A DNA stretch of 64,000 nt, taken from contig NZ_SRLA01000002.1 in assembly GCF_004745825.1 (NCBI RefSeq), positions 310,001 through 374,000 of the forward strand, written 5' to 3'. This DNA comes from Hymenobacter fodinae (GTDB lineage Bacteria > Bacteroidota > Bacteroidia > Cytophagales > Hymenobacteraceae). Below the pieces are notes generated by a model. It made no database searches, had not been told where the DNA came from, and worked only from the letters and a program-made list of their open reading frames with translations. Shown here piece by piece: positions 30,120 through 43,381 of the stretch (position 1 is the stretch's first letter; the number at the start of each line of letters is the position of its first letter). Position numbers and translations under genes: made by a program.

Positions 30120-32456
30120 CTAGTCGAGCTCCGTCACCGTGATCAGTACATCGGTATTGCGACCGTGGTCATCGGCGCAGGAAATTTTCAGCGGACCGGG
30201 CGGCGGCTGAATGAACACGCGCTCGGTGGCGGTGGCGGCGCGCAGGAATTTGTCGTTGACATACCAGAACACTTGGCGCACCTCATTGTCGGTGGTGCAG
30301 GTGAGTAGCAGCTGCTGCTTGTCGTGGCGGTTGAGCACGTACTCGGTGTTGGCAGTGGGCGAAGTGATAGATGGCGCGCGCTCCTGCCCTCCACGCACCA
30401 GCTGGCATTGCGGGTTGTGGGGAGGCAGGCGGCGGTACGGAATGCCCTGTGCTTCCTTATAGGCCGCTACTTCTGGCAATAAATTAGGGTATAACTCACG
30501 CCGATACCCAGCGGCTGGCGCACAGGCCCGGCAGTAGGTGAAACTCCCATCTGCCGAAACCAACACTTCCCGCGTGTGCTGGCAGCGCTGCCCGTTGCTC
30601 ACGTTGGGCAGGAAGTAATCGATTACCTGATTTGGGCAATTTTCGCCCGGCACTAGGCCACTCTCGGCGCATACCAGCCGGAAGTCGAGCGCGGCCGGGG
30701 GCACAAACCAGTCGTTGGGTGAGTTGTAGGCTAGGGTATTAAACAGGTCAAAAAGCAAGGGCGTAGCCACGTCGGCACCCGTAAGCGCCGGGCTGCCCTG
30801 CCCGCTGAAATTGCCCACCCACACCCCAATGGTGTATTGCTTGTTGTAGCCAATGCTCCAGGCGTCGCGACGGCCGTAGCTGGTACCGGTTTTCCAGGCC
30901 ACTTTAGGCAGGCGCATGCTGCTGGCCGCGTTGATGGGCAGGTCGGGCCGCGTGAGTTGGCTCAGGATTTCGGTAACGAGAAATGCGGCGGAGGGTGAAA
31001 GAAGTTGTTGACCGGGCGTTTCATTTTGGTTTCCTCCTTTTCTGGAGAGGGAGGTTGAGGGCGAGACGAGTTGTAACCGCTCATATTGCCCCCCGTCAGC
31101 CAGCGTCACGTACAGGTTGGTCAGTTCCTCCAGGCTGGCCCCACAGCCGCCCAAAATGCTACTGAGCCCCAGCCGCGTACGGTTGCGCGTCACACTCTGG
31201 AAACCAGCCTGGTGGAGTTTATCGGTGAAGGTGGGCACGCCCAGCTGATTGAGCACACGTACCGCTGGGATATTAAGCGAGTAGGCCAGGGCGCGCTCCA
31301 GTGTCACTTCCCCGTTGCAGTGCTTATCGAAGTTCTCGGGGCGGTACCCCTGAAAGTTGGTGGGCACATCGGGCAGCAGTTGTTTGGGCGTAACTAGGCC
31401 TCTGTCCATAGCCAGCGCATACAAGAAGGGCTTGAGGGTACTGCCCGGCGAGCGGACGGCCAGCACGCCATCGTTCTGCCCCCGGCTGGCAAAGTCGCGG
31501 AAGTCGGCCGAGCCCACGTAGGCCTCTACCTGCCGGGTGCGGTTGTTCACAACCAGCACGGCCGCCTGCGTGATGCCCAGCTCATAGAGGCGGCGCACGT
31601 AGCCCAGGGTCAGGTCTTCGGCCTTGGCTTGCTTGCTGCGTTCTAGGCCACTCCGGATGATGGCCTGCCGGGGGTACTGCCGCACCAGCCGCCGCGAGAG
31701 ATGAGGTGCCAGGGCCGGAGCGGCGTGGCGCTGCACATCCAAGGGTTCCAGCAGGGCATCTGCCACGTCCTGTTTCGGAAACAAGCCCGCCTCGCCGAAG
31801 CGCCGGAGCCAGCGGTTGCGCTCCTGCAGCACGGCCGCATTGTTTTTGCCCAGCACCAAGCCCCTAGGCCTGTTCGGGATGATGGCCAGCGTGACGGTCT
31901 GGGCCAGAGAGAGGTAGTCGGGGGTTTGCTGGAAGTAGAGCAGCGCCACTGACTTGACGCCTTCCACGTTGCCGCCGTAGGGCACTAAGTTCAGGTAGAG
32001 CTGCAGAATTTCATCCTTGCTGTAATGCAGTTCTAGCTGTGTGGCTCGCAGCATTTCCAGCAGCTTATTACCAACAGTGCGCTCCTTGGGCTCCAGCAGT
32101 CGGGCCACCTGCATGGTGATGGTACTGGCCCCCGTGGTGCGGCCCGAGCCAAACAGGTTGCGCCCCGCTGCTTGCACCAGGGCTACGGGATTCACGCCCC
32201 AATGCCAACGGAACCACCGGTCTTCTTTTTCCAGAATGGCCTTGCGTAGCACCGGCGTAATCTCGCGCAGCTCGGTTTTCATCCGCCACTTCTGGGTGGG
32301 GTTGAGGTAGGCGTGCAGCACGGTGCCGTCAGCGGCCAGCACAATAGGCGAGTACTGCGGCGCGGCTGGCAGCGGAAACCACCAATCCAGGCCTAGCAAC
32401 AGCAGCAGCACGAGGCCTAGGGCCGCTAGGCCACGCGAAATGATACGCCGGTTCAT
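30120..32456 (-). CDS. pbpC: Penicillin-binding protein 1C
   Basis: The protein has 778 residues: one N-terminal helix (LAALGLVLLLLLGLDWWF), a glycosyltransferase family 51 domain (EKEDRWFRWHWGVNP, then TITMQVARLL), a transpeptidase domain with the active serine in SPGSTLKPF and KTGTSYGRRDAW, and a C-terminal PBP1C domain (about residues 690-778). PBP1C polymerises peptidoglycan in the periplasm. In many bacteria it is linked to an alpha-2-macroglobulin gene; here that gene is at 36572, after a protease and an inhibitor-like gene. The TAG stop overlaps GGCCTAG. Confidence 0.95.
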   Translation of the reverse strand: MNRRIISRGLAALGLVLLLLLGLDWWFPLPAAPQYSPIVLAADGTVLHAYLNPTQKWRMKTELREITPVLRKAILEKEDRWFRWHWGVNPVALVQAAGRNLFGSGRTTGASTITMQVARLLEPKERTVGNKLLEMLRATQLELHYSKDEILQLYLNLVPYGGNVEGVKSVALLYFQQTPDYLSLAQTVTLAIIPNRPRGLVLGKNNAAVLQERNRWLRRFGEAGLFPKQDVADALLEPLDVQRHAAPALAPHLSRRLVRQYPRQAIIRSGLERSKQAKAEDLTLGYVRRLYELGITQAAVLVVNNRTRQVEAYVGSADFRDFASRGQNDGVLAVRSPGSTLKPFLYALAMDRGLVTPKQLLPDVPTNFQGYRPENFDKHCNGEVTLERALAYSLNIPAVRVLNQLGVPTFTDKLHQAGFQSVTRNRTRLGLSSILGGCGASLEELTNLYVTLADGGQYERLQLVSPSTSLSRKGGNQNETPGQQLLSPSAAFLVTEILSQLTRPDLPINAASSMRLPKVAWKTGTSYGRRDAWSIGYNKQYTIGVWVGNFSGQGSPALTGADVATPLLFDLFNTLAYNSPNDWFVPPAALDFRLVCAESGLVPGENCPNQVIDYFLPNVSNGQRCQHTREVLVSADGSFTYCRACAPAAGYRRELYPNLLPEVAAYKEAQGIPYRRLPPHNPQCQLVRGGQERAPSITSPTANTEYVLNRHDKQQLLLTCTTDNEVRQVFWYVNDKFLRAATATERVFIQPPPGPLKISCADDHGRNTDVLITVTELD

Positions 32457-32810
32457 ACACTCAAATATACCGGCTACCTAATAACTGTGCTGCTCATCAA
32501 GCAAAGCAAAAATAACGAGCTACTCATGCCAGCGACTGTCAGGAGAGCAAATTGTTAGGCGAAGCTTTGTATTGCTTATATGGTAGTATTTAGCCTTTTA
32601 AGATAAAATTATTTCAATCAAACTCGTCAATAGTTAAAAATATTTCAAAAAGACAAAACCGCATTATGAAGACTATTCGTAGATATGCCCTGACAGTGCA
32701 GTGCCAGTATCAGCTGCCGTTGATTGCCTTCCGCAACTCAGTCAACGATACGTACGCCGCGCTGCGGTCATCCTTTCACCCTTACCCTCTCCTTATTCCA
32801 CAACCGCTAC
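32457..32810. other. Divergent promoter region of PBP1C and S8 protease
   Basis: The centre (32575-32665) is strongly AT-rich and probably carries both promoters. The right end contains an open frame at 32666-32821 of 51 codons whose stop overlaps the protease start codon; see the separate entry. Nothing else is recognised. Confidence 0.45.
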
Positions 32811-32821
32811 ATGAAACGTAA
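32666..32821 (+). CDS. Possible leader ORF overlapping the protease start
   Basis: ATG at 32666 opens a frame of 51 codons (MKTIRRYALTVQCQY...) that ends with TAA at 32819-32821, overlapping the ATG of the protease at 32811 in a different frame. It follows directly after the AT-rich promoter-like segment. It could be a translated leader that couples to protease translation, or a chance frame in the 5' untranslated region. No family is recognised. Confidence 0.25.
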   Translation: MKTIRRYALTVQCQYQLPLIAFRNSVNDTYAALRSSFHPYPLLIPQPLHET

Positions 32822-35561
32822 ACTTTTCCTCTCCCTCGTGCTGGCCGGTGCCAGCATCAGTGTATCGTTTGGGCAAGCTACCGTCGACCCCGAGTTGCGG
32901 GCGGCCTTGGCCACCAATCCTACGGCACAGGTAATCGTCACTTTCAAGGGCAATGGAGCTCCCGGCCTCACCCAGCGGAGCCTGTTGCAACGGCTTGGCA
33001 TTACGCGCGGCATTACCCTGCAGGCCCTACCCGTAGCCGGCGTTATTGCTACGGCGGCCCAGGTAAATGCGCTGGCGCAAAGCCCGGAGGTACGTTCCCT
33101 CTACATCAATAAGCGGCTGGAGTACTACAACTACGAAGACACGCACCTAACCGGCGTGAAGCGCCTGCGCACCGACCAGCAAATGACAGCCCGTAATGGC
33201 GGGATGCCGGTTTCGGGCAAGGGCGTTGGCGTACTTATCAACGACAGCGGCGTAGATGGCACGCACGAAGATTTAAAGTTTGGTACCCACCTCGTGCAAA
33301 ACACGCTCGGCTCCACCAATCTGAACTCCCTGAGCACCATGCTGCCCGTTACGTACCTGGAAGGAGTGCCGAACACGGATACTAACTCTGGCCACGGAAC
33401 GCACTGCGCTGGCACGGTAGGTGGCACGGGGGCCCGCTCGGGCGGGAAGTATGAAGGTGTAGCACCGGGCGCCTCGTTGCTGGGCTATGGCTCTGGTGGC
33501 GCGCTGTTGGTGCTCGATGCCATGGGCGGCTTCGACTATGCCCTTACCCATCAGTTTCAGTACAACATCCGGGTAATCAGTAATTCGTTTGGCAGCAGCG
33601 GCGACTTTGACCCCAACGACCCGCTGAACGTAGCTACCAAAAAGTGCTACGACCGCGGCATGGTGGTAGTGTTTGCCGCCGGCAACGAAGGTCCCGGGGC
33701 TGATACCCACAACCCCTACGCTATTGCCCCCTGGACCATTTCCGTAGGCGCTGGCGACCGAAACGGGCTGCTGGCAGAGTTTTCCTCGCGCGGTGTGCGG
33801 GGCGAGCAGGGCACCTTCACGGTAGATGGCGAAACCTGGACCTTTAAGAACGAGCCCGCAATTGTGGCACCCGGCGTTGATGTAATTTCTACTCGCGCTA
33901 TTGCACCAGTATCGTCGCTTGGCGCTCAACAAGACATTGAGGTGTTGCAGCCAGGCGAGGTTCCCTTCTATACTCACAGCAGCGGTACCTCCATGGCTAC
34001 TCCGCACGTAGCAGGTATTGTGGCCTTGTTGCTGGAAGCCAAACCCACGCTGAACCCGGCACAGATAAAAGAGATACTGCAAAAAACGGCTACCAATATG
34101 CCCGGCCGCGAGTCGTGGGAGGTAGGATCTGGCTACGTGAACGCCTATGCCGCCGTAGATATGGCCTTCCGCGCTTCTACCTATGGCTCTACCGTAAATG
34201 CCAGCCGCCGCTTCAACAGCAGCGTAGATGCCCGCACCACGGCCGTGCCCTTTACCATCAACTACAACCCCGCGCTGGCCGCTGGCAACCAGTTTACCTT
34301 CCCGGTAGGAGCCGGCACCAATAGCATAGAAGTTAAAATATCCTCCACGGGCCTGCTAGGGCAAACAGGTAACCTCACCAACCTGATTCTGGTTGACCCC
34401 AACGGCGTGGAATACCGCTCGGGTATTCCCGTCACCTTCACACTCTCCACCGACCGCAGCGTGGCGGTGGCCTCGCCCGTAGCCGGCACCTGGACGCTGA
34501 AAGTAGATGGCCTGCAGGGTGTGGCTCTGCCCGAAACCATCAGCGGTAATATTACCATGCTGACGGCCGCCGGCACCTCCAACCTTAACGACATCGTAGG
34601 CCACCCCGCAGAGGCTTCCATCAAGATGGCCGTTGCTAACCGCTTGGTAGATGGCCTGAGCAACGGCTTCCGCCCCGATGCCCCGCTCACCCGCATTCAG
34701 CTCGCCGACTATCTGCTCATGGGCCAGGGCATCCGGCAACTGCTTCCCTTCAGCAGTGCTCGCACGTTCACCGATGTATCTACGCCGGCTGAAATACTGC
34801 TAACCGAATCGGTAGTGGCCAAAGGAGCCGCCCTGCGCGACCGGTACAACGTGGCTGGCGGTGTAATGCAGCCCACGGCTACCGGCATCTTCTCCCCAAA
34901 TGGCCTAGTAAACCGCGCTTCCCTGGCTTACTCGCTGGTGCAGAGCCTGGGCTTCCAGGAGCAGGCGCTGGCCCGCAACAGCCAGCCCCTGACGGTGCAG
35001 GTAAATGGGCAAACCATTCCAGTAGATGATGCCGCCAACGTGCCGGCCGCCCTGAAGGGCTACGTCAGCATTGCGCTGGAGCTGAATCTGATCAATGCCT
35101 ACTACTCGCTCACCCAAGGCGCCTACGACCAGCAGCCCACGCTACACGCTACCTTCAAGCCAAACCAGAACGTGTCGCGCGCTGATTTTGCCGTCATCGT
35201 AAGCCGGACATTCCCGCAGTATGATGCCGTAACGCAACCCACTGCTGCGCGTGGCACTGCTAGCTCGGCTACTGCTGTTGCTACGCCATCTGCCGCAACG
35301 GTGCTGGCGCAAAGCACGGGCGCTTACCCCAACCCATTCAGCGGCGCTACTACCATCAGCTACCACCTAGCTCAGCCCGGCCCCGTTAGCGTAGAGGTAT
35401 ACAACACGCTCGGCCGCAAAGTGCAAACGCTGGTATCGGGGGTGGAAGCGGCTGGCAACCACCAAGTGCGGTTTGATGCCGCCAACCTGGCCCGCGGCAC
35501 TTACCTGTTCAAAGTAACGAGCGGTGCCGCCGTTACTACCCAACGTCTGGTGCTTCAATAA
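32811..35561 (+). CDS. Secreted S8 (subtilisin-like) protease with SLH-like modules and T9SS sorting domain
   Basis: I start at 32811 (MKRKLFLSLVLAGASISVSFGQ), which yields a signal peptide; the longer frame is in the leader. The 916 residues comprise: an I9-like propeptide (about 25-105); S8 catalytic domain with D145 (NDSGVDGTHED), H195 (SGHGTHCAG) and S394 (GTSMATPHVAG); a beta domain (about 455-590); three SLH-like units (about 598-805, with FRPDAPLTRIQLADYL, FTDV and FKPNQNVSRADFAVIV); and a type A T9SS C-terminal domain (839-916, YPNPFSG). The enzyme should be exported by type IX secretion and held on the surface or released. Confidence 0.92.
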   Translation: MKRKLFLSLVLAGASISVSFGQATVDPELRAALATNPTAQVIVTFKGNGAPGLTQRSLLQRLGITRGITLQALPVAGVIATAAQVNALAQSPEVRSLYINKRLEYYNYEDTHLTGVKRLRTDQQMTARNGGMPVSGKGVGVLINDSGVDGTHEDLKFGTHLVQNTLGSTNLNSLSTMLPVTYLEGVPNTDTNSGHGTHCAGTVGGTGARSGGKYEGVAPGASLLGYGSGGALLVLDAMGGFDYALTHQFQYNIRVISNSFGSSGDFDPNDPLNVATKKCYDRGMVVVFAAGNEGPGADTHNPYAIAPWTISVGAGDRNGLLAEFSSRGVRGEQGTFTVDGETWTFKNEPAIVAPGVDVISTRAIAPVSSLGAQQDIEVLQPGEVPFYTHSSGTSMATPHVAGIVALLLEAKPTLNPAQIKEILQKTATNMPGRESWEVGSGYVNAYAAVDMAFRASTYGSTVNASRRFNSSVDARTTAVPFTINYNPALAAGNQFTFPVGAGTNSIEVKISSTGLLGQTGNLTNLILVDPNGVEYRSGIPVTFTLSTDRSVAVASPVAGTWTLKVDGLQGVALPETISGNITMLTAAGTSNLNDIVGHPAEASIKMAVANRLVDGLSNGFRPDAPLTRIQLADYLLMGQGIRQLLPFSSARTFTDVSTPAEILLTESVVAKGAALRDRYNVAGGVMQPTATGIFSPNGLVNRASLAYSLVQSLGFQEQALARNSQPLTVQVNGQTIPVDDAANVPAALKGYVSIALELNLINAYYSLTQGAYDQQPTLHATFKPNQNVSRADFAVIVSRTFPQYDAVTQPTAARGTASSATAVATPSAATVLAQSTGAYPNPFSGATTISYHLAQPGPVSVEVYNTLGRKVQTLVSGVEAAGNHQVRFDAANLARGTYLFKVTSGAAVTTQRLVLQ

Positions 35562-35584
35562 GTCAAACTTACCTGGCAACAAAC

Positions 35585-35615
35585 AAAAGGCCCGCTCCAT
35601 AAAGCGGGCCTTTTT
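35585..35615. terminator. Rho-independent terminator after the S8 protease
   Basis: AAAAGGCCCGCT, six-base loop, AGCGGGCCTTTTT: a strong GC stem with flanking A and T tracts, able to stop the protease transcript and the convergent inhibitor-like gene. Confidence 0.93.
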
Positions 35616-35652
35616 CGTGGTAGGGGCCTAGGCCACTCGGGCTGGCTAGTGC

Positions 35653-36429
35653 TTATTTAGGTGGCTCGGGCACCTCCACCTCCAGCTCGAAGTCGCGCTT
35701 GGGTGGGGCTTCGTTGTTGGCGGCGTTGCGGTAGAGGAAGCGGAGCGTGGTTTTGCCGGGGTTCAGGGCCTGAAACTGAAACGTTACGTCCTCCTCACGG
35801 CCTGCTTTTACTTTCTTCTTGGGCTTTTTGCCAGCCTGGGCGGGCGGAGGCGTTATCAGCTGTATCACGTTATCGGCAATCGGCATCACCTCCCATTGGT
35901 ATTGTGAGCCTGCCGTATTATCAAGCCGAATAGCCAGTTGGTCGCCCTTGTTTACTTTCACCCGGCTATGGTTGCCGTACTCCGTAACGTTCACGTTTTT
36001 AGCTACGCCGGGCTTGTCGATGGTGACAAATACGTGGAAGAAGCCATTCAAGGTAGAATAGCTGGTGCCCGGCTGCGCCGACACCAAGGCCAGGTCTAAG
36101 CCACCCGTGCCTACTGCCTGAAAGTGAATCTCGAACGTTGCTGGCGCGCCCGGCACGCCGCTGCTGAGCCCTGGCAAGCTGTGCACAGTTGATACCGCCA
36201 ACTGCCCTGGGTACGCCTGCGTCAGGCGCCAACCAAACCGCGGCGAAATAGTTGGCAGCCGAATAATTAGTTGGTCGCCTACGTTCAGCTGCACCTGCTT
36301 GCCATTGTCATTGGCGTTGAGGGTTACAATGTCGGCCTGGGCGGGAGTAGAAAAACCAAGCCCGCCGCATACTAGGAGCAATACCGTCGCTAGGCGCAGA
36401 GTGAGGGAGAAATGAGATGCCAGTTTCAT
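35653..36429 (-). CDS. Secreted protein with two chagasin-like (I42) domains
   Basis: The start at 36429 gives a signal peptide (MKLASHFS to TPAQA). The mature 230 residues read as two copies of a chagasin-like beta domain. Copy 1: NVGDQLIIRLP, SPRFGWRL, then VGTGGLDLAL. Copy 2: NKGDQLAIRLDNTAGSQYQW, then LNPGKTTLRFLYRN and a final beta strand. In the I42 family three loops (NPTTG, GxGG, RPW) block papain-type protease active sites. Here the frame is recognisable but loop 1 and loop 3 are degenerate (NTAGSQ, YRNAA), so inhibition is inferred. A KKPKKKVK insert separates strands in copy 2. It is upstream of nothing on its strand except the terminator and follows the alpha-2-macroglobulin start region. 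Confidence 0.6.
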   Translation of the reverse strand: MKLASHFSLTLRLATVLLLVCGGLGFSTPAQADIVTLNANDNGKQVQLNVGDQLIIRLPTISPRFGWRLTQAYPGQLAVSTVHSLPGLSSGVPGAPATFEIHFQAVGTGGLDLALVSAQPGTSYSTLNGFFHVFVTIDKPGVAKNVNVTEYGNHSRVKVNKGDQLAIRLDNTAGSQYQWEVMPIADNVIQLITPPPAQAGKKPKKKVKAGREEDVTFQFQALNPGKTTLRFLYRNAANNEAPPKRDFELEVEVPEPPK

Positions 36430-36464
36430 AGCGCGGTGCTCGAAATAGTGTGTAAACAGCAACA

Positions 36465-36492
36465 CAGCCGGCTACTTAGAAAGCGCCGGCTG
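36465..36492 (-). terminator. Hairpin between alpha-2-macroglobulin and inhibitor-like genes
   Basis: CAGCCGGC, 12-base loop, GCCGGCTG: an exact 8-bp GC stem just upstream of the inhibitor-like start codon. It lacks a T tract and may attenuate read-through rather than terminate. Confidence 0.4.
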
Positions 36493-36518
36493 CGGTAGAA
36501 ATTCTACGGATGTGAGGG

Positions 36519-36540
36519 TAAAAAGCTGCAGTTGAGCTTT
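36519..36540 (-). terminator. Terminator of the alpha-2-macroglobulin gene
   Basis: On the minus strand AAAGCT, seven-base loop, AGCTTTTTA gives a short stem followed by Ts. A second hairpin (GACGCAA-ACTG-TTGCGTC, 36553-36570) lies between it and the stop codon. Confidence 0.55.
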
Positions 36541-36571
36541 GCAGGATGCAGTGACGCAAACTGTTGCGTCT

Positions 36572-39500
36572 CTATCGCACCCGCACTATGCCGCTGCCTG
36601 CGTAACTGTGATACTCGGCGTTGTACATGGCATCGGCGCTGACGGGGCCGAGCTTAAACGTGCCCTTGCTCACGGCCCGGCAGAGGTAGTAGAAAGACTT
36701 GGCCTTGGGCGTAGCGGTAGTAAACAGGTTAATCCGGTCGTCGCGCACGTCGAGGTAGTCGGGTTGGGCGGCGTCCTTAGCCCAGGTCAGCTCCCGCATG
36801 GCCCCGATGCGCGGGTTTTCGATTTCCAGGCCGGCGGGCAGTAGGTCCGTGATGGCCACGTTCTTGACTTCACCCGCAGTTTCAGCCGACTGGATGGTGA
36901 TTTTAACTACTACCAGGTCGTTTTGCTTGAAGGTGGTAGAGCCCACCGGGTTACCGTTGCGGTCCAGGAACTGGCGGCGCACTTGCAGGTAGGCGTCCTC
37001 CTCGCGCACCTGGCCGATGGGCGAAATGCCTTCGGTTTCCCAGAAGTAGTAGAGGCTGCCTTTGCCGCTGGTGCGTAGGGCCAGCTGGCGGTTAGCCACG
37101 TTGCTTACCGTAAGGTCCTTGCCTGAGAAGTTGCCAATTGCCTTGCCATCGGCCAGCAAACTAGCCACTACAGTGCTACCCGCGTTTTTCTTCGCCAGCT
37201 TACCTAGGGCTAGCAAGGCAAATGACCGTTCCTGGGTGTTGAGCCAACCAGCCTGCTTTACCTGGCGGCTGAGCTGACGAGCCAACGTGCTTACCTGGGG
37301 GTTGGCGGGGTCAGCGGCGAGCAGGGCATTGAGCACTAAGGCCTCGTCGCGGATAGGGGAGGAGAAGGCGCCATCGAGCTGGCGGCCGGCAATGCTGGGC
37401 GCGGCTCCGAAGCGGGTGGGCACGGTGCTTTGGTAGCCGCGCTGGTTGCCGCTCAGGGCGAAGGCCGCCGCCAGCAGGTAGCGCGAATCCTCGGCCAGCT
37501 GGGGGCGGTTGGCTTTGTAGTAGTTGAGGCCTACAGCATCGGGGCGGCCGGCAAGGGCCAGCACGTAGAGCGAGTAGGCCACTTCCTTCTTGGCCAGCGT
37601 AACGAGCTGAATCACGCCGCCGGTCTGGATGATGTTGTAGGTGTCGGTTTCGCGCTTGCGCACCCGGGCCTGCAGGTAGCGCAGGACTCTATCGAGGACG
37701 TTCTTGTTCACATCAAAGCCGGCTTGCTGGGCTTCCAGCAGGAAGTGGGCGGCGTAGGTGGTGGCCCACCAGTTGTCGTAGTCGCCGCCGGGCCAGTAGC
37801 TCAAGGAGCCGTTGTACATCTGTTGGGCTTCCACCTTCCGGATGGCTTCTTGCACGTGGTAGTTGGGGTTGAACAGGCCCGCCTTACCGGGCTTGCCTGA
37901 TTTCTGGCCTAGCGTGGCGGCTAAGTCACCGTAATACAACTGCGGGAAAGCGGCCGACACGGTTTGCTCCAGGCAGCCGTAGGGGTATTGCAGCAGGTAG
38001 CGCAGGTCCTTGGCAAACTCCGTCATGGGCGAGCGGCTCACCACCAACTGGCTCCGCAACGACGAAGGCAGAAAGTCAGTGCGCAGGTTCAGCTGCTGAG
38101 CCGCACCGCCCGCCACCACCCCCGCCCCCGTGCGCTTCTGCAGCGGCGAAGCAGGACGGATAGGCAGCTCGATGGTTTCGGTGAAGGTTTCGGTGATGCC
38201 TTTGATACCCCTGACATTAATCTTGACAATCCCATTACCAATAGCCGAGGTGGCTTTGAAATGCAAGGTCACTCGTTGTTCATTGTTAGGCTTAAGCTTA
38301 ACTGCATAGTTTTCGTCTTTCTCAGTGACGCCGCCCTCTGTATGAGGAAGAATGTGGTCTTGCTCAGCTGAAACGATTGGGCCAGATAGTATAGGCTTTA
38401 CCTCTACCAACATTTCCTGATTAGTCGTATTAGTCAGCGTTACGGGCACGTCAATTGTGTCGCCGGGGCTGAGGAAGCGGGGGAGGGCGGTGCTGATTAC
38501 TACTGGGTCGGCGACGCGCATGGTGTGCTCGGCGGAACCGAAGGCGTCGTTCTTGTAGGCCACGGCCATGATGCGCACGGCCCCGCTGAACTGGGGCACT
38601 TGCAGTTTGTAGCGCACTTTGCCGCTGGCATCGGCGGTGAGCACGCCGCTCCATTTGGCAAGCAGTTTCACGCGGCGGTTGGGCACGGGCGTGGTGCGGC
38701 GCGAGAGGTCGTAGCCGTCGCCGCCAGTGCTGCTGGTCCCGAGTTCGGGCAGCAGGAAGGGGTAGACGTCGTAGGCCTGTACTTCCAAGGCGCGCTTCTG
38801 GTAAAAGTAGCTGTAGGGGTCGGGCGTGCGGAAGTCCTTCATCTGCAGAATGCCCTCGTCCACCATCGCCAGCGTCACCTGGGCGCCGGGGGCGGTGGTT
38901 ACCTCAATGGTTTGGGTAGTCTGGGAGCGGCTTTGCGCGGGGGCTTTAATAGCCACTTGCAGCTTGGCGCCAGGCTTTTCTACCGTGAGCGGCACGAAGC
39001 CGCGGGCCACCGTGAGGGGTAAGCGGTTGTCCTTGATTTCGCGGATGGCGGTGGCCGTCACGTAGACGTTGGGCACGTGGCCGGTACGGATGGGAATGCT
39101 CACGCGGGCCGATTTCTCGTCGGTGTTCACGTAGAAGTGGTCCAGCACCCGGTCTCGCTCCACGGTCACGAGCACGCGGCCGGGGAAGGGCGTTTTCAGT
39201 AGGAGGTTGGCCGTTTCGCCGGGCTGATATTTGGGCTTGTCGGCCTCAATGGTCACCTCGCCCTCGTTGTTCACCTCGAAGGAGTTGCTCTGGGTGTCGC
39301 CGTAGCCGTAGGCGTACACGCGCTGGGCCACATAGGTCACGGCCCCTGGCCTAGAAACCCGGATTTCGTACTCGCCGGAGTAGGTGGGCGTGAAGCCCAG
39401 ACCCGCATCGGAGCCGCCGCTGGCTACCGTCACGGTGCGGCTCAAGACCACCTGCTCGCGCTTCTGCGAGTTGTAGATGTAGCGGCCGCCCTGGCGCTCA

Positions 39501-42121
39501 ATAACCGTTTCCCAGAGCAGGCGCACCACGCGCACCGTGGCCTGGGCCGAGGTAGGCTGGCCGGCCGGTGTGAGGGCCACCAGCCGCACCGGCAGGGCCT
39601 GGCGGGTTTGCACCAGCTCTTCCATATTTCTCACCCCAAACAGCACCGGCTGAGTCTGCACCTCAAAGGTGGCGAGGCGGTTTACCGGGCGGCCGGTTTC
39701 ATCGAATACCGTGGTGAAAGCGGCGCCTTCCAGAATGCCTAGGTCACTGTAATCGGGCACCTCGTAGGTGGCGGTGCCACGGCCGGCGGCGTCGGTAGTG
39801 CCTTCGCGGGTAGTCTTCTCGAACCGGTCGGAAATGGGCGTGGAAACCTGGTCGCCATATTGGCCGCGCTGCTTGTCCCCGCTATTGATGGCGAAGGTGT
39901 AGTCGGCGTAGTTTTTCGGATTGAAAGCTTTTTCCTTGAGCGAAAACTCCACCTCAAACTTGCGGTCAGCGGCGGGAGGGCCGAACAGGTTCTGGGCCGT
40001 AATCTGGGCATCCACCGTCTGGCCGGGCTTCACAACTGGCCTAGAGGCCTTCACGGTCACCTTCAGGCGGTCCGGAATGAACTCCTCCACTGAGAGCTTG
40101 CGTGAGGTCAGCAGCACGTCGTTCCCAGTCAGCACTTCCAGAGTGTAGAGACCGGTCATTACGGCCGGGGGTAGGAGGAAGCGGGCCTCGAAGGAGCCGG
40201 CCGCGTTTAGCGTTTTTTGCAGGCTGGCGTACTCCTTGCCGGTGGGCAGCAGCAGCCTGATTTTCACCGGGAGGCCCTTGGGCGGTGCCTGCCAATCCTC
40301 GGTCCGGATGACAGTGTTGGTCTGGATGGTGTCGCCGGGGCGGTACAGGTCCCGGTCGCCGTAGAGGAAGGCCTGGTAGCGGGCGGCATTGCTTTGTAGG
40401 CCACCCACCTCGAAGCGGGAGGTTTCTACGCGGCTGCGGCTCAGATCGAGGAAGGTGAAATCATTGCCCTGCTGGGCCATCACCATGCCCAACCGGAAGC
40501 GGCCATTCTGGGCGGTGCTGTCAAATTTCGCTACCCCCTCGCCGTTGGTGAGGCCGGTGCCCATCACCTGGTTGTTGGTGCTGATAAAGCGCATTTCCAC
40601 GCCGCTCAAGGCCTTGGCGTTGCGGATAGAGTTGGCAAATACCAGCGTGCTGCCGGCCTTGCCTTGCTTCACAATCAGCCCGATATCCGACACGGCCACC
40701 AGCTTGCTCACCTGCAGCCACTGGCGCTCCGTGTCCTGCACCCTGATGATGTAGAGACCCTTCAGGCCACCGGAAAACTCCAGGTCCTTGAGGTTCAGGT
40801 TCAGCAGCCGCAGCCCTTGCGCCTTCGGCAGCCCCGACACGGTGTAGGTGCGTTCTGTGAGCACGTTGCCCAGGTTTTCTACATCGTAGTACTGGTAGGA
40901 GCGGTCCACGTATCCGCCTTCCTCACTTTCTTCCTCATCACCAGATTCTTCCCCATCGTAGCCGGGGTAGCCGTACTGGGTGCCGCCGCGGAGAAGTTGC
41001 TGGATGTTGTTGGCGTAGACCTTGGCAATGGTCACCTTCACCTTATCCACCTCGTTGATGCGCACGCCCAAATTGCGCGAACCCAGCGCGTCGAGGTACA
41101 TGGCTTTCTCGGCGCTGGCGAAGCTGATGGTCGGGCGCTCATCGGAGAAGCTTACTGTTTGGGTGAAATCCTCGCTGAGATGTCCGCCTAGGCCACCCCG
41201 CAACCCCTGGCGCAAGCTCACCTGGTAGCTTTTGCCTACCTCGAAGCCACCCTTGAGCCGGAAGCCACTTTCCAGCTCCTCCACCTCGTAGGCCACCTGC
41301 GGCGACACCGACAGAGCATTCTGCAAGTCGCCCGTGGTGACCGGCTGGCTGGTCAGGATGGTGATGACCGGGTCAGCCGCTTGCAGGGTGCCGGTGATGG
41401 AGCGTATTTCCAGTTCCTCCGGGTCGGGTACCTCCACCTGCTTTTCGTAGTCGGAAGTAGAGGCTTGGTCGCTGCCCTGGGCACGCAGGCCCTGGCCTAG
41501 CGCCACCGTGAGGGGGCTGCCGGGCCGCACCTGCTGGTTGAGGCTCACGCGCACCACTTGGCCCGGCTCGGTGCTGGCTACTTCGAAGGCTACGGGCTGC
41601 CCATCCTGGGTTACGCGCAGCAGAGGCTTCACGTCAGAAGGCTTCACGCTGTAGTTGAAGGGTAGCTCCACGCGCATTTCGGCCGTGCCGGCGGCCCGCT
41701 CCGAGCGACCCCAGAAGGCCTGCGGCTCCTGCAACTGCAGGTAGGGGGTGTAAAACTTCTGGCGGTTCTCGGGCAACTCCACGCCTTGCTTGTCTTCCGG
41801 CAGGGCCTCTTTGCGCAGCGTGGCCGTAAAGGCGGTGCTAGGCCGGAAGGGCGTGCTGGGGGAGAAGATCAACTCTCTATCCGAAGTCCACTTGAACTTG
41901 CCGCGCACGGCCGGCTCAAACTTCACCACCTGCACCGTATCCCAGCGGTCCTGCTGCTCTGGGCTGGCCACGGCATCAGCAAACTGAAACACCAAGTTCT
42001 GGTACGGGTCTATTTCCTCACCATTAGGGTCCTGGCTGGCATCGGAGCCCGACTTAGAGCAGGCGCACACCAAAGCCAGCAGCACCAGCAGCGGCAGGCG
42101 AGAAACGGAACGGAATAGCAT
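36572..42121 (-). CDS. Bacterial alpha-2-macroglobulin (thioester protease trap), lipoprotein
   Basis: This is a giant 1849-residue protein. The signal ends in the lipobox VCAC (LLALVCACSKSG), so it is lipid-anchored in the periplasm. It holds a long series of macroglobulin beta domains, a bait-like region and, at C1383, the thioester motif GCLEQ within YPYGCLEQTVSAAFPQ, the same CLEQ as in E. coli YfhM. Proteases that cut the bait are trapped covalently. YfhM-type proteins are typically paired with PBP1C and guard the periplasm during wall damage. Here PBP1C is 4 kb away, beyond a protease and a chagasin-like gene. An acidic Glu/Ser loop (about residues 390-405) is distinctive. Confidence 0.93.
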   Translation of the reverse strand: MLFRSVSRLPLLVLLALVCACSKSGSDASQDPNGEEIDPYQNLVFQFADAVASPEQQDRWDTVQVVKFEPAVRGKFKWTSDRELIFSPSTPFRPSTAFTATLRKEALPEDKQGVELPENRQKFYTPYLQLQEPQAFWGRSERAAGTAEMRVELPFNYSVKPSDVKPLLRVTQDGQPVAFEVASTEPGQVVRVSLNQQVRPGSPLTVALGQGLRAQGSDQASTSDYEKQVEVPDPEELEIRSITGTLQAADPVITILTSQPVTTGDLQNALSVSPQVAYEVEELESGFRLKGGFEVGKSYQVSLRQGLRGGLGGHLSEDFTQTVSFSDERPTISFASAEKAMYLDALGSRNLGVRINEVDKVKVTIAKVYANNIQQLLRGGTQYGYPGYDGEESGDEEESEEGGYVDRSYQYYDVENLGNVLTERTYTVSGLPKAQGLRLLNLNLKDLEFSGGLKGLYIIRVQDTERQWLQVSKLVAVSDIGLIVKQGKAGSTLVFANSIRNAKALSGVEMRFISTNNQVMGTGLTNGEGVAKFDSTAQNGRFRLGMVMAQQGNDFTFLDLSRSRVETSRFEVGGLQSNAARYQAFLYGDRDLYRPGDTIQTNTVIRTEDWQAPPKGLPVKIRLLLPTGKEYASLQKTLNAAGSFEARFLLPPAVMTGLYTLEVLTGNDVLLTSRKLSVEEFIPDRLKVTVKASRPVVKPGQTVDAQITAQNLFGPPAADRKFEVEFSLKEKAFNPKNYADYTFAINSGDKQRGQYGDQVSTPISDRFEKTTREGTTDAAGRGTATYEVPDYSDLGILEGAAFTTVFDETGRPVNRLATFEVQTQPVLFGVRNMEELVQTRQALPVRLVALTPAGQPTSAQATVRVVRLLWETVIERQGGRYIYNSQKREQVVLSRTVTVASGGSDAGLGFTPTYSGEYEIRVSRPGAVTYVAQRVYAYGYGDTQSNSFEVNNEGEVTIEADKPKYQPGETANLLLKTPFPGRVLVTVERDRVLDHFYVNTDEKSARVSIPIRTGHVPNVYVTATAIREIKDNRLPLTVARGFVPLTVEKPGAKLQVAIKAPAQSRSQTTQTIEVTTAPGAQVTLAMVDEGILQMKDFRTPDPYSYFYQKRALEVQAYDVYPFLLPELGTSSTGGDGYDLSRRTTPVPNRRVKLLAKWSGVLTADASGKVRYKLQVPQFSGAVRIMAVAYKNDAFGSAEHTMRVADPVVISTALPRFLSPGDTIDVPVTLTNTTNQEMLVEVKPILSGPIVSAEQDHILPHTEGGVTEKDENYAVKLKPNNEQRVTLHFKATSAIGNGIVKINVRGIKGITETFTETIELPIRPASPLQKRTGAGVVAGGAAQQLNLRTDFLPSSLRSQLVVSRSPMTEFAKDLRYLLQYPYGCLEQTVSAAFPQLYYGDLAATLGQKSGKPGKAGLFNPNYHVQEAIRKVEAQQMYNGSLSYWPGGDYDNWWATTYAAHFLLEAQQAGFDVNKNVLDRVLRYLQARVRKRETDTYNIIQTGGVIQLVTLAKKEVAYSLYVLALAGRPDAVGLNYYKANRPQLAEDSRYLLAAAFALSGNQRGYQSTVPTRFGAAPSIAGRQLDGAFSSPIRDEALVLNALLAADPANPQVSTLARQLSRQVKQAGWLNTQERSFALLALGKLAKKNAGSTVVASLLADGKAIGNFSGKDLTVSNVANRQLALRTSGKGSLYYFWETEGISPIGQVREEDAYLQVRRQFLDRNGNPVGSTTFKQNDLVVVKITIQSAETAGEVKNVAITDLLPAGLEIENPRIGAMRELTWAKDAAQPDYLDVRDDRINLFTTATPKAKSFYYLCRAVSKGTFKLGPVSADAMYNAEYHSYAGSGIVRVR

Positions 42122-43246: not shown

Positions 43247-43381
43247 AGCTAGGCTCCCCTCCTCAGATGAGGAGGGGCTGGGGGTGGTTGATTAATTGAT
43301 GAACATCCACTAGCTCTAGTTTCTAATTCTAATTTTTCAACCACCCCCAGCCCCTCCTCATCTGAGGAGGGGAGCCTAGCT
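43247..43381. repeat. 45-bp inverted repeat with nested palindromes (REP-like element)
   Basis: Arms at 43247-43291 and 43337-43381 are exact reverse complements of 45 bases, separated by a 45-base AT-richer spacer. Each arm itself contains CCCCTCCTCA-GA-TGAGGAGGGG, a 10-bp hairpin, followed by CTGGGGGTGGTT. The element fills the gap between the hydrolase (+) and proA (-) convergent genes. It resembles intergenic REP/BIME elements, which are often mobilised by Y1 transposases. No transposase is nearby. Confidence 0.9.

Follow-up and report, generated by a model that had tools for sequence, protein, structure and literature searches.

A chagasin-fold protein encoded beside the alpha-2-macroglobulin–PBP1C pair of Hymenobacter: a candidate accessory in a gap shared with an S8 protease

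Introduction

When a protease gene lies among genes for proteins expected to hold proteases in check, do these genes work together or do they only share a place? The question is raised by a locus of Hymenobacter fodinae found in the window, a stretch of 64,000 nucleotides (positions 310,001 to 374,000 of contig NZ_SRLA01000002.1, assembly GCF_004745825.1), in which an S8 protease gene and a gene for a chagasin-like protein (hereafter I42) are placed between the genes for PBP1C and an alpha-2-macroglobulin (A2M). The original prediction saw in this island a coupled protease/anti-protease unit at the envelope, by which the cell may be protected from its own or foreign proteases.

Type I A2Ms of bacteria are generally treated as one half of an A2M–PBP1C pair that has no further partners. 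The pairing, correctly named in the original prediction, and its proposed trap-and-repair role are already described in the available portions of PMC4498604 and PMC5764988. A literature search, whose reach excluded most subscription papers, found no paper joining Hymenobacter and macroglobulin and none on I42 inhibitors of cysteine peptidases in Bacteroid- taxa, and the accessible part of PMC12620975, which brings together chagasin, macroglobulin and bacteria, does not treat the Hymenobacter locus.

Gene Organization of the Locus

Open reading frames and profile matches bear out the four predicted genes, in the order PBP1C (−), S8 (+), I42 (−) and A2M (−). The PBP1C (PbpC) gene (30120..32456, − strand) encodes 778 aa with SxxK at S339, SLN at 393 and KTGTS at 522; its product scores 718.6 bits against the TIGR02073 PBP_1c equivalog (cut-off 494.2) and carries transglycosylase, transpeptidase and BiPBP_C domains according to Pfam and NCBIfam. 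Antisense to the other three, an S8 subtilase of 916 aa with SLH repeats and a T9SS type A tail is encoded at 32811..35561 (+ strand, ATG start). The I42 gene (35653..36429, − strand, ATG start) encodes 258 aa with a signal peptide recognized by eye, and is the next gene downstream of the A2M gene (36572..42121, − strand), whose product of 1849 aa begins with a lipobox-like sequence, LVCAC, likewise recognized by eye. Between the convergent I42 and S8 genes lies a putative terminator (35585..35614) with a 13-bp stem and a T-run on both strands; it was predicted on the − strand as the best stem of 13 hits, a total not above that of shuffled sequences, and the T-run on the + strand was read from the sequence. 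The number of promoter predictions in the region is also not above that of shuffles.

A search for this four-gene order in other genomes, the check that the original prediction had called for, found it in 10 of 120 Hymenobacter genomes, the window genome included (G000, G418, G430, G438, G439, G456, G469, G476, G478 and G484). The intervening genes are thus not confined to the window genome. All four frames are unbroken in seven of the ten, while A2M is broken in G438 and G439 and S8 in G484. In a further genome, G016, the positions of S8 and I42 are swapped relative to the window order.

The A2M–PBP1C Pair

MG2, bMG3, bMG5, bMG6, bait-region, A2M, TED and bMG10 domains are all found above the Pfam cut-offs in the A2M of the window, and its closest solved structures are SaA2M (4u48, E 8.1e-95) and E. 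coli YfhM (E 3.7e-85 to 4.3e-85). The order of MG, bait-region and TED domains agrees with Pfam and with the alignment to 4u48. The thioester had been predicted at C1383; indeed, CLEQ begins at this residue, directly after YPYG, and the codons of residues 1383–1386 (PYGCLEQ) are located at 37964..37975 on the − strand. PYGCLEQ is found in 109 of 111 A2M sequences of the genus, the remaining two being fragments of 832 and 881 aa. From its CXEQ thioester motif, its domain order and its linked PBP1C gene, the protein is classified by sequence as a Type I A2M, and protease trapping is predicted for it. Apart from this gene, a bMG10 domain is found in a second frame of the window genome, of 2112 aa (G000:C7:1183297-1183671), which represents a second, larger macroglobulin-like protein.

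The pair is widespread in the family. In a 110-genome family sample, A2M is present in 83 genomes and missing from 27, and all 83 also carry PBP1C; PBP1C is found in 84, and the additional copy is a fragment from a genome that is 78% complete. Among 120 Hymenobacter genomes, A2M is found in 116 and PBP1C in 118.

The same arrangement is known from E. coli YfhM (ECAM)–PbpC and Salmonella SaA2M, which share with the window a Type I A2M, the CLEQ thioester, the tyrosines of YxYGCLEQ and an adjoining PBP1C gene, as far as the available text of PMC4498604 describes them. The Hymenobacter lineage has an extra chagasin-fold gene between A2M and PBP1C, to which certain of its species add an antisense S8 gene. 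Neither gene is known to accompany the YfhM–PbpC pair of E. coli.

A precedent for a partner of A2M is given by the mag operon of Pseudomonas aeruginosa, in which the Type II A2M MagD is encoded with its neighboring, dedicated accessories MagA, MagB and MagF (PMC5764988, in the part available). MagD has no thioester, whereas the A2M of the window is of Type I and linked to PBP1C; a chagasin-fold member of the mag operon is not described in the accessible text of the same paper.

The Chagasin-fold Protein and Its Loops

I42 matches PF09394 with 65.4 bits in two stretches (cut-off 27.2). Its structure was taken from one AlphaFold model built on a 10-sequence alignment (mean pLDDT 76.1, pTM 0.60) and compared by VIA-align 2. 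Domain 1 of this model (residues 34–138; 36016..36330, − strand) resembles amoebiasin-1 (6cjz) with a Z score of 10.0, and domain 2 (residues 149–254; 35668..35985, − strand) resembles EhICP2 (3m88, Z 11.6) and chagasin (2nqd, Z 10.8). Both domains are thus modeled with the chagasin fold, in line with the original prediction of a secreted protein with two chagasin-like domains. Foldseek alone put unrelated Ig-like proteins first, while chagasin-family entries were ranked at the top by VIA-align 2; weak similarities to filamin and to bMG10 were taken as chance Ig-like resemblance.

With the chagasin/ICP family, MEROPS I42 (PA-ICP 2wgn, chagasin and the amoebiasins), the protein has PF09394 and the fold in common (Z 8.2 to 11.6). 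It differs from the family in its two tandem domains and in the loops. Chagasin contacts papain-type peptidases by three loops, L2 with NPTTG, L4 with GxGG and L6 with RPW/F, according to the available portion of PMC2607524. In pattern scans of the 32 A2M-linked I42 copies, no NPTTG-type motif of L2 and no RxW of L6 was found (0/32 each). GxGG is present in all 32, yet it is located near residue 107, after strand E, so that it does not lie at L4; the L4-equivalent reads GVPGAPAT. A loose RxWE/RxFE pattern placed an L6 motif in 28 of the 32, and these matches were rejected because they are RDFE or RTFE, which lies in the last strand some 11 residues beyond L6. As a control, the same patterns were applied in six frames to 20 other Bacteroidota stretches, in which 21 of the 37 I42 matches from the phylum sample are located, and 14 of the 20 match all three loop motifs. 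Therefore, of the inhibitor fold proposed for this locus, the fold itself stood in both domains, but the motifs for binding cysteine proteases are missing from the 32 copies, and an annotation as “inhibitor I42” made from the fold alone can mislead.

In the L4-equivalent loop of domain 1 (PGLSSGVPGAPAT), the top-residue share reaches 0.95, compared with 0.83 for the whole domain, and it is exceeded only in the linker between the domains, the most conserved stretch of the protein (0.96). The L4-equivalent loop of domain 2 is variable and Lys-rich, with a share of 0.61. By inference, the conserved loop of domain 1 would be a conserved, re-purposed binding surface. The best reading of these sequences is that the function of I42 is non-canonical and that its cysteine-protease-binding loops have been rewritten. 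As for peptidases of the C1 family, the only PF00112 match in the window genome covers 43 positions in a 796-aa frame with no evident signal peptide (G000:C13:204924, L002).

Distribution of I42 and Its Linkage to A2M

I42 is found in 10 of the 110 family genomes, namely in six of Hymenobacter and four of a sister genus. In the larger Hymenobacter set, it is present in 28 of 120 genomes and absent from 92; therefore, A2M does not need I42. Where I42 occurs, it follows A2M downstream, in the same orientation, in 27 of the 28 Hymenobacter genomes and in all four of the sister genus, 31 of 32 in total. The exception is G482, whose A2M is on another contig, with none within 10 kb of I42. A2M and I42 are separated by 0.1 to 1.3 kb in 30 of the 31 linked genomes, and by 3.7–3.8 kb in G016, because there the S8 gene sits between the two. 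On the other side, PBP1C starts about 100 bp after I42 where cargo is missing between them.

At 17 named I42 loci, with flanks limited to 10 kb and without independence from the 120-genome set, A2M and PBP1C are each retained at 16, against seven with the RND-efflux neighbors and seven with the upstream hydrolase. I42 is still found where A2M identity is as low as about 67%, and also at loci without conserved outer flanks. Nevertheless, the linkage of A2M and I42 could reflect plain vertical inheritance. In 296 Bacteroidota genomes, I42 is found in 34, bMG10 in 133 and both in 12, and no phylum-wide association was found: among the matches listed, the two are side by side only in the window genome. 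In eight of the 12, they are on different contigs, some near contig ends, where adjacency is possible, and in three the bMG10 position is not among the matches listed. The pairing is therefore shown only for Hymenobacter and the sister genus.

The S8 Protease

The S8 protein matches PF00082 with 146 bits, the T9SS tail PF18962 with 40.9 bits (cut-off 27) and TIGR04183 above its cut-off. In addition, SLH repeats, which the original prediction had missed, are found in two stretches (PF00395, 52.6 bits). A triad of D145, H195 and S394 was assigned by motif; in the genomes where the gene has not moved, HGTH is present in 31 of 31 sequences and GTSxATPH in 29 of 31. With its type A sorting domain, the protein is a predicted T9SS cargo. 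Its domains are the same as those of other Hymenobacteraceae S8 subtilases with SLH repeats and T9SS tails, from which the copies in the A2M–PBP1C gap stand apart as a clade of their own: the 30 locus proteins group together with an SH-aLRT of 97, and neither the 13 non-locus genes nor the G426 copy falls among them. The single clade fits one entry followed by many losses. In one locus, L072 of G096, two tandem antisense S8 copies are found inside the gap.

A close S8 relative is present in 36 of the 120 Hymenobacter genomes, 30 of them at the A2M–PBP1C locus and six solely elsewhere (G104, G409, G410, G036, G426 and G470). In all 30 genomes that have it at the locus, it runs antisense to A2M and PBP1C, or to their remnants; 12 of the 30 also carry I42 and 18 lack it. 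The genes also decay separately. S8 is intact in G445 and G446, where only A2M fragments and a broken PBP1C remain, and in G417, where A2M is gone and PBP1C is fragmented; conversely, in the presence of A2M, I42 and PBP1C, the S8 frame is broken in G484 and reduced to 179 residues in G481. In the family sample, A2M is present in 33 of 45 genomes with S8 and in 50 of 65 without it (Fisher p 0.82), that is, it is missing from 12 and 15 of them, respectively.

A link of S8 with I42 is seen in the raw counts of the 120 Hymenobacter genomes, in which the locus S8 is commoner with I42 (12/28) than without it (18/92; Fisher p 0.023). On the A2M tree of 111 sequences, 11 independent pairs divide into 4.6 in which the two genes agree, 0.1 in which they are opposite and 6.3 undecided, with a median p of 0.06. 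This link is weak, and co-deletion of neighbors would give the same pattern.

The A2M–PBP1C Gap as an Insertion Site

The contents of the gap were surveyed in 40 stretches from 39 genomes, with Pfam run on one representative of each. Y1-type transposases (five genomes), Uma2 nucleases (five), an unassigned family of 295–342 aa (eight), TonB/SusD genes (two), an SPFH protein and a BamE-like protein (three) are found, and a block of genes of 17–21 kb, common to G068 (L058, L087) and G044 (L060), fills the gap in these genomes. Since the gap holds such varied cargo, adjacency within it is weak evidence of shared function, except where it is constant, as for I42.

Interpretation

We consider it somewhat better than even, at a probability of about 0.55, that the locus consists of the known A2M–PBP1C pair, a lineage-specific chagasin-fold accessory of non-canonical function and a passenger S8 protease in an insertion-prone gap. 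The core would be an envelope pair, in which the Type I A2M acts as a thioester protease trap and PBP1C in wall repair. I42 would be secreted, probably into the periplasm, and has been inherited right after A2M in Hymenobacter and the sister genus. Because the residues that bind papain-type peptidases are lost while the L4 loop of domain 1 is strongly conserved, the most likely reading is that I42 has a different binding partner, for which A2M, PBP1C or a protease from another class would be plausible, and that it serves as an accessory of the A2M trap. The S8 gene, transcribed from the other strand, would have entered the gap in effect once in this lineage, and its product, exported by T9SS, would be a passenger that serves a function of its own, probably protein digestion outside the cell. 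A more specific and less likely form of this reading is that a Type I A2M has gained a dedicated accessory from the chagasin fold, whose three inhibitory loops were all rewritten in the process. Such a protein would correspond to the Mag accessories of Pseudomonas and might, for instance, guard the thioester or the bait region, or connect A2M with PBP1C.

Not far behind this specific form in plausibility, I42 may still be a protease inhibitor whose loops were rewritten for another target, either another cysteine protease family or an exogenous protease that comes from a predator or a competitor; A2M and I42 would then form a two-layer periplasmic shield. The fold kept in both domains, the nearly invariant domain-1 loop and the constant pairing with a protease trap are as expected of such an inhibitor, whereas the loss of the L2 and L6 motifs from every copy argues against it, as does the single short C1 match in the window genome, C1 being the only family searched. 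In either case, a gene linked to A2M in 31 of 32 genomes after losing the known inhibitory residues makes I42 a concrete candidate, be it for a partner of A2M or for an inhibitor directed at a new target. We regard it as improbable that I42 and S8 are both neutral cargo and that I42 has simply not moved. The variety of genes in the gap and the absence of I42 from most Hymenobacter genomes would suit such neutrality, but I42 is retained at distant A2M identities even where the outer flanks are not conserved, and its place beside A2M varies far less than the place of S8, which six of the 36 carriers in the genus have solely elsewhere.

The proposal that A2M and I42 shield the cell from its own S8, or from foreign proteases released with S8, in a coupled offence/defence unit is equally improbable. 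It draws on the ten genomes with all four genes together and on the co-occurrence of S8 with I42, both in the counts and in the independent pairs. Against it, S8 is antisense in every locus and separated from I42 by the putative terminator in the window, it survives or disappears regardless of A2M and I42, with 18 of the 30 locus copies lacking I42 and 12 of the 45 S8-bearing family genomes lacking A2M, and the known targets of chagasin-family inhibitors are papain-type cysteine peptidases rather than S8, in the part of PMC2607524 available. In particular, self-protection from the cell's own S8 was set aside because S8 outlives both A2M and PBP1C in three genomes and shows no dependence on A2M in the family sample. 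As the case of S8 illustrates, the adjacency of protease and anti-protease genes in the A2M–PBP1C gap need not mean coupling.

A Repeat Upstream of A2M

An inverted repeat is located upstream of A2M at 43247–43381, with arms of 51 nt that are 96% complementary. Exact copies of its 22-nt core are found in 9 of 228 loci, including the A2M–I42 gaps of three sister-genus genomes (L078, L081 and L082). Judging from these features, it is a predicted MITE- or REP-like element.
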